Notes under the pieces: model-generated
The model's input: the letters and a program-made list of their open reading frames with translations, nothing else
What the model was told of the DNA's origin: nothing
Database searches by the model: none
Translations under genes and position numbers: made by a program
Shown here: piece after piece, positions 16,713 to 20,861 of the stretch
How positions within the stretch are numbered: the stretch's first letter is position 1
Layout: each line of letters begins with the position of its first letter
From: Halococcus agarilyticus
Lineage (GTDB): Archaea > Halobacteriota > Halobacteria > Halobacteriales > Halococcaceae
Assembly: GCF_000334895.1 (NCBI RefSeq)
Contig: NZ_BAFM01000005.1
Coordinates: forward strand, 1 to 64,000
Direction: 5' to 3'
Length of the DNA: 64,000 nt

Positions 16713-19193
16713 ATGCACTTCGACCAGGGGATAAAATATCTAACAGGAATCGTGCTCGCTACGGTGGTGGTCGGTTCGGCCGCCGTCGGCGTGGGCGTGC
16801 TCACCGGCGGGGTCGCGGGCCAGGCGAGCGGCCCGACACAGGCACCCGACCTCCAGTCGGTCGAGAACTTCCGGGAGAACGACCTGGGCAGCGAGGGGGC
16901 GGTGCTCGTCGACTTCACGTTCGACGAGAACGCGACGACCGTCAGTTCGGGCGGGAACTTCAGGCTCGTCCCGACCGACGGCAGCACTGACATCGGCGGT
17001 GTGAACATCGTTGAGGGCGAGGGAACCGAGACGATCACGGTCGCGTTCGACGAACCGGTGACGGAGGGCGAGATCGCCCGCGGCGTCGTCAAGGCGAACA
17101 CGGTCCGCGTGACGGGTGAGGGCGACGAGACCAACAACCCACTGCAGGCGGCTACCGTCTCGAACGACGGCAACTCCGACGATCCTGATCTGGTGAGCGT
17201 CACGAAAAACGAGACCGGCGACGCGCTGATCTACGCGTTCGACGATCCCGTCACGGTCAACAGCGACAGCGGTTTTCAGGCCTACGAAGCGAACGCGAAG
17301 GAGACAGGTGGCAACGGGGCGGTCGCCTCGCTCGCCACCCCGAAGCGCGTGAAAGTCACCTTCGACGGTCTCGATCCTGCGAACGCAGTCGGCGGTTCCG
17401 TTGTCGAAGGGGCGGTCACGAACGCGAGCGACGACACGCTAACGAACTCGCTCGACGAGGTGGCAGTAGATGACGGACCGGCAGCTCCGTTCAGCAAGTG
17501 CGGCGGGGGTGGCACGAACGACACCGGCGACGGCGGCAGCGGCGACGGCCCGACCCAGGCCCCCGACCTCGTGAACATCGACAACGTCACTTACCGGCAG
17601 AACCCCGAGGGTCAGAACTGCCAGACGCTCGTCGAGTTCGACTTCGACGAGTCGGTGAAGCTCCAGGGCGGCGCTGGCAACTTCCAGCTGATCCCGATCG
17701 ATGGCGAGGGCACGTTCGACGGCAACAACGAGGTCGTCGGGCCGACGAACCAAACGACCTCGCTCACGGTCCCCTTCGATGGCCGGATCGATCCCGATAC
17801 GATCGCTCGCGGCTTCGTCGACCGCCGGGTTGTTCAGGTCAGCGGCGGGGGTGATTCGACTCTCAATCCGAAGCAGGCCGCCGACCTGAACAACGACGGC
17901 AACACGGCGAACCCAGACCTCGTGAGCGTCACCGAAAGCGACGCGCCCGACAACGCGCTGCTGTTCGAGTTCGACGAGAACGTTTCGGAGGTCGGCGACA
18001 CGAGCGGGTTCAACTTCTACAACATGAACGGCACCGAAACCGACGCGACGACGGTCGCCATGACCGACGATCCGACGGTGCTGTCGGTGGCGTTCGAGCC
18101 CGGCAGCTCCCCGGTGGGCAAGGCGGTCGGCGGATCGGTCGACGCCAACGCGGTCGTCGGCGAGGACACCGGTCGCGCGGACGGCGACGTGAACCAGCCC
18201 GACGAGACGGAACTCACCGGCGATCGCACGGTCGAATGCGGGAACGCCACGGTGGCGAACGACTCCGGACCGACCGCCGCACCCGACCTCGGCGCGATCA
18301 GCGGGTTCTGCACCGGAAATCTGGCCTCGTTGAACGGTCAGCAGACGTTCGTCAACTTCACCTTCGATCAGCCGGTCGACCTGGTGGGCGGCGCGGGTAA
18401 CTTCCAGCTCGTGCCGGTCGACAGCCAGAACTTCCAGAACCAGCTGTTCGACGGCAAGGGCGAGGTCGTCGCCGGCGACGGGACGAAGACGCTCACGATC
18501 GCGTTCGACGACAGGGTAAACGAGTCGGTCGTCGCCCGCGGGTTCGTCGACGCAGGAACGGTCGCGAGACCCGACACCCAGAGCCCGCCGACCAACCCGA
18601 AACAGGCCGCAGACGTCTCGAACGACGGCAACTCGGCGAATCCGGACCTCGTATCGGTTTCGTCGGGCGGCGAGAACGAGCTCCGATTCGAGTTCGATGA
18701 GAACATCTCCGAATTCGGCGACACGAGCGGGTTCAACTCCTACGACTCGAACGGCGACGAGACCGATGCGCAGGACCTCGAACGGACGGACGATCCGCAA
18801 GTGGTCGCCGTACAGTTCGAACCGCAAGCGAACGTCTCAGCCAACGCAGTCGGCGGGTCGGTCGACGCCAACGCGGTCGTCGGTGAGGACACCGAGCGCG
18901 AGGACGGCGACGTGAACCAGCCCGACGAGACCACACTCGAAAACGGGACCGGAAGCGGTCCCGGGCCCGTCGGCGACGTCGAGAACCCGCCGTCGGACGT
19001 CGACGGTGACGGGCTGTACGAGGACGTCGATGGCGACGGCAGCCTGACCGAAGCCGACTCACAGGCACTCTACGACAACCTCGACAGTTCGGAAGTCCAG
19101 AACAACGTCGACGCGTTCGACTTCAACGGCGACGGCAGCGTGACTCAGGCCGACGCCCAGGCACTCTACGACGAGTGGTCGAACACCAACTGA
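16713..19193 (+). CDS. Secreted repeat protein with C-terminal dockerin-like EF-hand pair
   Basis: 826 residues from ATG 16713. A signal/anchor helix (YLTGIVLATVVVGSAAVGVGVL) is followed by three homologous units of about 220-240 residues starting near residues 40, 279 and 519, each opening with P(T)xAPDL. Each unit has two related halves: one with a GAGNFQL(I/V)P block and ARGFVD, and one with GDTSGFNxY and AVGGSVDANAVVGEDT. The last ~70 residues carry two EF-hand-like loops, DVDGDGSLTEADSQAL and DFNGDGSVTQADAQAL, spaced as in dockerins. Many NxT/NxS sequons suggest N-glycosylation. It ends 15 bases before a cohesin-like protein gene. Confidence 0.8.
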   Translation: MHFDQGIKYLTGIVLATVVVGSAAVGVGVLTGGVAGQASGPTQAPDLQSVENFRENDLGSEGAVLVDFTFDENATTVSSGGNFRLVPTDGSTDIGGVNIVEGEGTETITVAFDEPVTEGEIARGVVKANTVRVTGEGDETNNPLQAATVSNDGNSDDPDLVSVTKNETGDALIYAFDDPVTVNSDSGFQAYEANAKETGGNGAVASLATPKRVKVTFDGLDPANAVGGSVVEGAVTNASDDTLTNSLDEVAVDDGPAAPFSKCGGGGTNDTGDGGSGDGPTQAPDLVNIDNVTYRQNPEGQNCQTLVEFDFDESVKLQGGAGNFQLIPIDGEGTFDGNNEVVGPTNQTTSLTVPFDGRIDPDTIARGFVDRRVVQVSGGGDSTLNPKQAADLNNDGNTANPDLVSVTESDAPDNALLFEFDENVSEVGDTSGFNFYNMNGTETDATTVAMTDDPTVLSVAFEPGSSPVGKAVGGSVDANAVVGEDTGRADGDVNQPDETELTGDRTVECGNATVANDSGPTAAPDLGAISGFCTGNLASLNGQQTFVNFTFDQPVDLVGGAGNFQLVPVDSQNFQNQLFDGKGEVVAGDGTKTLTIAFDDRVNESVVARGFVDAGTVARPDTQSPPTNPKQAADVSNDGNSANPDLVSVSSGGENELRFEFDENISEFGDTSGFNSYDSNGDETDAQDLERTDDPQVVAVQFEPQANVSANAVGGSVDANAVVGEDTEREDGDVNQPDETTLENGTGSGPGPVGDVENPPSDVDGDGLYEDVDGDGSLTEADSQALYDNLDSSEVQNNVDAFDFNGDGSVTQADAQALYDEWSNTN

Positions 19194-19208
19194 AAACCTA
19201 ACGCTCCC

Positions 19209-20861
19209 ATGACGAAACTCCTCGACACACGACGCGAATCGCTCCTCAGTCTCGCACTCGCCGCCCTCGTGCTCGTCTCGGCCGGCTCGGCCGTGACGTT
19301 CACCGCCAACGCGGCCGGCAGCACCACCGTCTCGCTCTCGCCGACCGAGCAGCGGGTCGACACCGGCGAGACGACGACCTACGAGGTCGTCGTCGAGAAC
19401 ACCGACGGCGGGATCGGCACGACCGATGCAGCCGTCACGCTCGACGACCCCTCGGTCGGATCGATCACCGACCTCACGATCGCGGGCGAACCGGCCAACG
19501 AGAACATCGCGATCGCCGACGACGGCTCCAGCGCCTCGTTCGACGCGGTCTACTTCGGCAACGCACTGTCCGACGACCCCGGCGGCGTCGTGATCGCGAC
19601 GGTCACAGTCCGGGGCACCGAGGCGGGATCGAGCGGTCTCTCGCTCGACGTGACCGAGATCAGCGACGCCGCGGGCGACGTCTACGACGTGACCGGGACC
19701 GACGGGGCGTCTCTCGCCGTCGGCGGCCAGGTGACGACAACGGAAACGCCGACGGAGACCCCGACCACGACGCGGACTCCGACCGAAACGGGAACGCCGA
19801 CGACGACACAGCCGACCGCGACTGAGACCGAAACCTCGACCACCACACAGACCACCACCGGAACGGAGACAACGACGACGGCGATCGAAACCACGACCCA
19901 GACCACGACGACCGCAGGAACGACGACCGAAACCGAAACTGAGACACCGGCCCCGACGACCACGGCGACCGAAACCGAGACCACCACGACCGAAACTACC
20001 ACGACAGCATCACCAACCTCGACGGACACCGAAACGACGACTGAAGCGCCGACCACAGGAACGACGTCGAGCGAGACCACGACCGCAGCAGACACCACGA
20101 CGGCCACGCAGACGGCGACCGAAACGACCACGACGGCCGACGACGGCGAGCGAACGCTCGACGGAGAGTCGATCGCCGACTCGCTCGCCGACAGCGATCT
20201 CGACGATACCCAGACCGGTGGAGTCAGTACGGCGCTCGACACGAGTGACCTCAGCGACGCAGAGATCACCGCGATCACGGACGCACTCGCCAGCGACGAC
20301 CTGTCCGGCGAGCAGCGTGAAACGATCGCCGACGCCGTCGCGGCTGGCGACCTCAGCGACGAGCAGTTGCGGGCGCTCGCCGACGCACTGAGCGACGGCC
20401 GGCTCACGGACGCGGAACGCGACGCGCTCGGCTTCCTCGGCGAAGCGGGCGTGACGTACTACCAGGTGGACTTCGTGACCGGCGAACCGATCGAGGAGCT
20501 CCGCGGACCGGAGGGCACGTACACCGAGGATCAGCTGATCAGGTTCGCCCACGGCAGCACCGAGGAGCCGATAGTCCGTCGCTCGGCGGGCGAGTTCACC
20601 ACCGATCACGTGTTGGCCGACCGGATCGAGAGCCAGGACATCGAGGTCACAAACGGCACCGCGACCACGACGTTCACCGTCGCCGAGGGCGAATCGATCA
20701 CCCTGACGCTCGCGAGCTACGAGAAGATCGGTCCGGGCTGGAGCCCCGAGACCGAGGCACTCCAGGAGTTCGTCGACAGCGAGACCCGAACGTTCGAGTC
20801 CGGCACTCACACCCTCACCGTCGATCTCCCCGACGAGGACGGCTCGAACGGCACGGAATAG
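19209..20861 (+). CDS. Secreted protein with cohesin-like domain, Thr-rich stalk and C-terminal domain
   Basis: 550 residues. Signal peptide 1-37 ends ...FTANAA. Residues 38-175 form a beta-sandwich resembling cohesins: TTVSLSPTEQRVDTGETTTY, VVVENTDGGIGTTDAAVTLD, ASFDAVYFGNAL, GVVIATVTVRGTEAGSSGL and SLAV. Residues ~176-310 are an almost pure Thr/Glu/Pro stalk, probably O-glycosylated. Residues 311-410 are Asp/Ala/Leu helical repeats (SDLDDTQTGG, SDLSDAEITAI, DDLSGEQRETI, GDLSDEQLRAL). The last ~140 residues are an unrecognised domain. No transmembrane or PGF anchor. Directly downstream of the dockerin-like gene, so co-transcribed. Confidence 0.78.
   Translation: MTKLLDTRRESLLSLALAALVLVSAGSAVTFTANAAGSTTVSLSPTEQRVDTGETTTYEVVVENTDGGIGTTDAAVTLDDPSVGSITDLTIAGEPANENIAIADDGSSASFDAVYFGNALSDDPGGVVIATVTVRGTEAGSSGLSLDVTEISDAAGDVYDVTGTDGASLAVGGQVTTTETPTETPTTTRTPTETGTPTTTQPTATETETSTTTQTTTGTETTTTAIETTTQTTTTAGTTTETETETPAPTTTATETETTTTETTTTASPTSTDTETTTEAPTTGTTSSETTTAADTTTATQTATETTTTADDGERTLDGESIADSLADSDLDDTQTGGVSTALDTSDLSDAEITAITDALASDDLSGEQRETIADAVAAGDLSDEQLRALADALSDGRLTDAERDALGFLGEAGVTYYQVDFVTGEPIEELRGPEGTYTEDQLIRFAHGSTEEPIVRRSAGEFTTDHVLADRIESQDIEVTNGTATTTFTVAEGESITLTLASYEKIGPGWSPETEALQEFVDSETRTFESGTHTLTVDLPDEDGSNGTE

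Follow-up and report, generated by a model that had tools for sequence, protein, structure and literature searches.

A probable dockerin-cohesin gene pair in the haloarchaeon Halococcus agarilyticus and its apparent place in a divergent, largely overlooked cohesin clade

The cohesin and dockerin folds occur together in the cellulosomes of clostridia and ruminococci (1ohz, 3ul4, 5nrm) as well as in non-cellulosomal pairs, which include those of Archaeoglobus fulgidus (2xdh) and of anaerobic methanotrophic (ANME) archaea (PMC9012536). The same two folds are encoded side by side in the haloarchaeon Halococcus agarilyticus, by two genes of a 64,000-nucleotide stretch of contig NZ_BAFM01000005.1 (the window), whose products are called P1 and P2 here. 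We judge it quite probable that P1 and P2 are dedicated to each other as dockerin and cohesin partners, with P1 docking via Ca2+ onto the stalked P2 at the cell surface. Like the non-cellulosomal pairs, they combine a cohesin fold with a type I dockerin in secreted proteins and are not tied to cellulose. Unlike those pairs, the haloarchaeal cohesins appear to be a divergent clade with a conserved two-gene layout, the dockerin gene mostly first, and P2 has a Thr-rich stalk and a C-terminal module of its own. The window pair departs from cellulosomes in having a single cohesin and a single dockerin, with neither an enzyme nor a carbohydrate-binding module. The combination by which a cellulosome is recognised, a multi-cohesin scaffoldin with dockerin-bearing enzymes, is seen not in the window pair but, at the level of sequence, in only two relatives (genomes G174 and G020). 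Some haloarchaeal relatives do show cellulosome-like traits, with cohesins that are several to a protein or membrane-tailed and with dockerins borne on glycoside hydrolases.

Type I dockerins have been recorded before in secreted haloarchaeal proteins. For example, those of polysaccharide-degrading natronoarchaea, which resemble P1 in this respect, were interpreted as substrate-binding, and no cohesin partner was mentioned (Sorokin et al., 2024; PMC10963439). Likewise, haloarchaeal dockerins have been described elsewhere as substrate-binding domains, with cohesins unmentioned (PMC13260240). A 2023 comparison of cellulolytic haloarchaea, in which the mechanisms are called almost unknown in halophilic archaea, mentions neither cohesins nor dockerins (PMC10267330). 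No description of haloarchaeal cohesins was found in the open-access literature, a scope that excludes Peer et al. (2009), the principal survey of cohesins and dockerins outside cellulosomes.

The original prediction, made from the sequence alone, had proposed that neighbouring genes encode a dockerin-like and a cohesin-like secreted protein, and the two open reading frames (ORFs) do lie on one strand with 15 bases between them (Table 1). This gap suggests that they may be co-transcribed. Homologues of P1 align from residue 1, which supports the ATG at 16713 as its start. Both proteins are high in Asp/Glu and low in Lys/Arg. The prediction that P1 ends in two EF-hand loops with dockerin spacing holds, and its C-terminus can be securely assigned as a type I dockerin on its family match. 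Dockerin_1 (PF00404), with a curated cut-off of 22.9 bits, scores 31.2 bits on the whole of P1 (E 2.5e-7) and 34.4 bits on the isolated domain, and it matches 33 of 34 relatives of this domain. The segments DVDGDGSLTEAD and DFNGDGSVTQAD are near-identical loop-helices with acidic or Asn ligands at loop positions 1, 3 and 5 and Asp at position 12, and in the AlphaFold model residues 24-32 and 56-68 (model numbering) are helical. Dockerins of the P1 type have in addition a conserved lead-in, DPDGDGxYEDVNGDG, which continues into the first loop.

The relationship of the P2 domain to cohesins becomes apparent when families are compared by profile. No cohesin model of Pfam or NCBIfam matches P2, and PF00963, the Pfam cohesin model, finds nothing over the genome of the window, even at an E value of 10; among 41 relatives of the domain it touches two (best E 1.2e-4). 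A search of PDB sequences with the hidden Markov model profile of the cohesin-like domains gave a Ruminococcus cohesin as its top match (E 0.076), which is not significant alone. A profile of the P2 domain, built from homologues in other genomes, was compared by hhalign with PF00963-passing cohesins of other archaea, and a probability of 97.3 over 129 columns was obtained. The controls were CARDB (40.1 over 50 columns), an Ig-like domain likewise found in the surface proteins of haloarchaea, the repeats of P1 (below 1), shuffled columns (at most 1.4) and reversed columns (1.0), and the positive control, haloarchaeal against other archaeal cohesins, gave 98.5. At the level of profiles, the P2 domain is thus homologous to verified cohesins, and specifically so in comparison with other Ig-like families. 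The haloarchaeal cohesins of the P2 type are, on these alignments, a divergent clade mostly missed by PF00963.

Predicted structure agrees with the profiles. P1 and P2 share a reading frame and therefore, with the TGA of P1 read as Trp, the dockerin and the cohesin form a single chain; this is a folding device and no read-through is claimed. The AlphaFold2 input alignment had 32 rows, six of which are similar natural in-frame neighbours. The mean predicted local distance difference test score (pLDDT) of the fused model is 85.5, and the folded parts of both domains are mostly above 90. When the P2 domain of the model was searched against the PDB with Foldseek, ranks 1-45 were all cohesins or cohesin-containing chains, with template modelling (TM) scores of up to 0.76 by target length. 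These best 45 matches comprise several cellulosomal types and the non-cellulosomal cohesins of Clostridium perfringens and Archaeoglobus fulgidus, the latter (2xdh) at rank 6. Residues 38-171 of P2 hence have a cohesin fold in the model. The beta-sandwich that had been expected after the signal peptide is borne out by both comparisons, and the outcome named beforehand as contrary, an unrelated Ig-type fold, did not appear. The original prediction is confirmed as an observation and its interpretation is supported.

The pairing of the two domains recurs well beyond the window. Of 295 genomes from the order, 121 match the P1-type dockerin, 85 contain a cohesin-like domain and 78 contain both. The dockerin is thus present in 78 of the 85 cohesin genomes as against 43 of the 210 without a cohesin (Fisher p 2e-31, with phylogeny ignored). 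Because three candidates per genome were scored in the P1 search, absence of the dockerin is over-counted; genome G270, for example, was counted as lacking it and has one at L118. When loci were gathered by the cohesin domain, a dockerin gene immediately adjoined 60 of 84 cohesin-like genes, in 49 of the 60 directly upstream and in the same orientation, and of the remaining 24 another 18 carry a dockerin in their own ORF, which brings the total with a dockerin in a neighbour or in the same ORF to 78 of 84. Part of this set (L085-L124) was chosen from the best cohesin matches after many pairs had already been noticed. Free of that choice are 25 named loci found via the cohesin alone, from Halobellus, Halorussus, Haloarcula/Halomicroarcula, Halorubrum and Haloferax among others, and a dockerin gene lies within 1 kb in 21 of them.

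Within the genus, seven genomes, the window's included, have one cohesin of the P2 clade each by profile counts. Six of these (G002, G003, G005, G007, G008 and G009) have one P1-type dockerin, and the genome of the window has one strong and one weak (21 bits). By profile, G001 has neither a P2-type cohesin nor a P1-type dockerin. The haloarchaeal cohesin profile matches P2 alone in the genome of the window, where no other candidate partner of P1 is recognised. Recurrent pairing of this kind suggests that haloarchaea assemble surface proteins by a route that is widespread and has mostly gone unnoticed.

Several observations weigh against P1 and P2 as a dedicated pair. PF00963 does not match P2, and this miss is taken as a limit of the model and not of the fold; the P2 domain is accordingly placed in a divergent clade with the cohesin fold and not in PF00963. 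The C-terminal transmembrane helix of many relatives is not present in P2 by hydropathy. One further genus member, G004, holds three cohesin domains and eight dockerins, and the one-to-one count is thus not universal. The fused model has a predicted TM score (pTM) of 0.60 and a disordered linker, so that it establishes no interface and says nothing firm on docking. In mirror-tree tests, the dockerins correlate with the neighbouring cohesin at r 0.52 (0.51 where both exist) and with a same-chain cohesin at 0.63, and the nearest-neighbour partner test gives 14 of 28; overall tree similarity does not separate the two candidates. At single residues the neighbour is favoured. Of 19 dockerins with a small residue after loop Asp12, 17 have a neighbouring cohesin that is aromatic at a particular aligned site, as against 0 of 30 dockerins with an aliphatic residue there, and where same-chain and neighbouring cohesins differ in class throughout, the dockerin tracks the neighbour (5/5). 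This association is no more than a hint that the neighbouring cohesin may be the partner, since the choice of residues was made with the data in view and the sequences share ancestry.

Other readings of the locus have to be set against the same evidence. The cohesin-fold domain of P2 may bind carbohydrate or the surface and the dockerin of P1 may be a separate Ca2+- or substrate-binding tail, in which case adjacency reflects merely that each gene encodes a surface protein. Such a separation would agree with the published descriptions of haloarchaeal dockerins (PMC10963439, PMC13260240), and the mirror-tree tests do not prove partnership. However, two unrelated surface genes could not be expected to show such specific adjacency and co-occurrence, the lead-in and loops of the dockerin are strongly conserved, and dockerin and neighbouring cohesin do match in two residue classes, albeit in a comparison chosen after seeing the data; we consider separate functions unlikely. 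It is also conceivable that either protein has another main partner. The genome of the window does encode a second dockerin, of another subtype, in a 1793-aa frame with CARDB domains (L097:6351-11621 on G000:C14), and some relatives hold at least 34 dockerins for few cohesins. This second dockerin scores 52 bits with PF00404 but just 21 bits with the P1-type profile, and no cohesin was found for it. With P2 the sole cohesin recovered by the haloarchaeal profile and none recovered by PF00963, and with the single cohesin and single P1-type dockerin of the six other genus genomes, other main partners seem distinctly improbable. Least credible is that the P2 domain is one of the many Ig-like spacers of haloarchaeal surface proteins: the domain has no Pfam match and a few of its relatives weakly match the Big_2 and fn3 models, yet profile and structure comparisons set it clearly apart from CARDB and the P1 repeats, and its leading PDB matches are cohesins without exception.

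If P1 and P2 are a dedicated pair, a cargo and its anchor may be envisaged. Both proteins would be exported, given their hydrophobic N-termini, and the C-terminal dockerin of P1 would fold round two Ca2+ ions and bind the N-terminal cohesin of P2 non-covalently. P2 would show its cohesin on the stalk, which is probably O-glycosylated, and its C-terminal module would keep it at the cell envelope. P1, a beta-rich repeat rod, would thereby be displayed at the surface, perhaps as an adhesin or surface filament. The Thr-rich stalk of the original prediction is confirmed (58% Thr over residues 176-312). Beyond it, P2 runs on into parts that were not described before, helical repeats and then the C-terminal module, whose motif is YYQVDFVxGEPIE...LASYEKPGPxW...GTHTLTVDLP. 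This module has no Pfam relative and a search of PDB sequences found none either. It occurs elsewhere in the same genome (L098:7964-11596, L099:9203-12208 and L100; two of the proteins have 5'-nucleotidase domains) and is shared by cohesin proteins from other genera, and because of this recurrence a shared attachment role is plausible. The body of P1 is made of three tandem repeats of about 225 aa each, and a structure search with the predicted repeat, a model of moderate confidence, gave no informative PDB match.

Table 1. Features of the P1 and P2 genes (positions in the window)
Feature	Position	Strand	Remarks
P1 gene, 826 aa	16713-19193	+	Secreted repeat protein with C-terminal dockerin; cargo side of the proposed pair
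P1 hydrophobic N-terminus, probable signal peptide	16713-16820	+	Read from sequence
P1 repeat unit 1	16833-17474	+	44% identity to unit 2
P1 repeat unit 2	17550-18221	+	Predicted all-beta, moderate confidence, pLDDT 73
P1 repeat unit 3	18270-18944	+	57% identity to unit 2
P1 dockerin with conserved lead-in DVDGDGLYED	18996-19166	+	Pfam Dockerin_1 part 19017-19166
First dockerin loop-helix, DVDGDGSLTEADSQAL	19023-19070	+	
Second dockerin loop-helix, DFNGDGSVTQADAQAL	19119-19166	+	
Intergenic gap, 15 bases	19194-19208		P1 stop is TGA; P1 and P2 share a reading frame
P2 gene, 550 aa	19209-20861	+	Secreted protein with cohesin; proposed receptor or anchor
P2 hydrophobic N-terminus, probable signal peptide	19209-19313	+	Hydropathy peak at residue 12; read from sequence
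P2 cohesin domain, haloarchaeal clade missed by PF00963	19320-19724	+	Profile comparison and predicted structure; beta-sandwich at residues 38-171
P2 Thr-rich stalk, 58% Thr	19734-20144	+	Residues 176-312
P2 short helical repeats, DLSDxQxxALADAL type	20154-20423	+	Weak sub-threshold Pfam match
P2 C-terminal module, about 131 aa	20445-20837	+	Residues 413-543; common to other secreted haloarchaeal proteins; possible cell-surface attachment

The cargo-and-anchor layout is suggested by the relatives, since their cohesins are stalked and helix-tailed and their dockerins ride on varied functional domains. In many of their short cohesin proteins a Ser/Thr stalk leads to a hydrophobic helix at the C-terminus, and the PGF motif on some of them is presumably a sign of archaeosortase anchoring. 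The dockerins are carried by subtilase, PQQ propellers, malectin/PKD, MG (macroglobulin-type) and beta-helix proteins. For example, in Haloferax (L095, L176, L177 and L178) the dockerin genes are divergent from a stalked, membrane-tailed cohesin gene, and in L095 the dockerin is borne by a subtilase, which suggests a surface-tethered protease. Other examples include the gene runs of Haloarcula and Halorubrum (L157, L158, L159 and L161), in which a dockerin protein (X-Doc) is followed by one with two cohesins and a dockerin (Coh-Coh-Doc) and then by one with three cohesins (Coh-Coh-Coh), and the residue class shifts jointly in the dockerin and the downstream cohesin. Their order suggests chains in which each protein may dock onto the next. 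The metagenome-assembled genome QS_4_69_34 (G010; L217-L226) has 34 dockerin matches and five cohesin domains, and its dockerin ORFs carry unusual enzymes, namely MmgE/PrpD, GMC oxidoreductase, penicillin amidase, S15 peptidase and rhamnosidase.

Two cellulase-rich haloarchaea extend the range of these architectures. At one locus of G174 (L233:4-19999; G174:C23:1-20000), an ORF encodes a glycoside hydrolase family 5 (GH5) cellulase followed by at least five tandem cohesins and is ended by the contig edge. Its neighbours are genes for dockerin-GH5 and dockerin-GH9 proteins and for a 209-aa cohesin that has a hydrophobic helix at the C-terminus. PF00963 does not match the five cohesins of this ORF, and 47 P1-type dockerins are found in the genome. 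G020 (G020:C1; L227, L228 and L102) has 71 P1-type dockerins, runs of dockerin-bearing GH5, GH10, GH43 and GH9 enzyme genes, a three-cohesin ORF, a cohesin protein that ends in a membrane helix, and a cohesin-dockerin protein that Pfam recognises. When the cohesins of G174, G020 and G004 were pooled, profile comparison gave 99.3% with the family of the window, 96.1% with verified cohesins and 18% with CARDB. It is possible that G174 and G020, in which many of the dockerins sit on glycoside hydrolases, represent an unreported haloarchaeal cellulosome.

The greater interest of the P1-P2 pair is as an entry to a haloarchaeal cohesin clade overlooked by the standard models. We lean towards a general haloarchaeal cohesin-dockerin assembly system built on this clade, which would extend from cargo-anchor pairs through chained scaffolds to true cellulosome-like complexes in cellulose degraders. 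The pair suggests partners for many haloarchaeal dockerins that are now labelled substrate-binding or left unexplained, and it gives a testable explanation of the means by which cellulolytic haloarchaea retain their enzymes. Dockerin-cohesin pairs that are stable in salt could also serve as assembly tools. If the reading of P1 and P2 as mutual partners is true, archaea living at near-saturating salt would gain a strong, non-covalent and Ca2+-dependent snap-fastener at their surface, suited to an acidic proteome.

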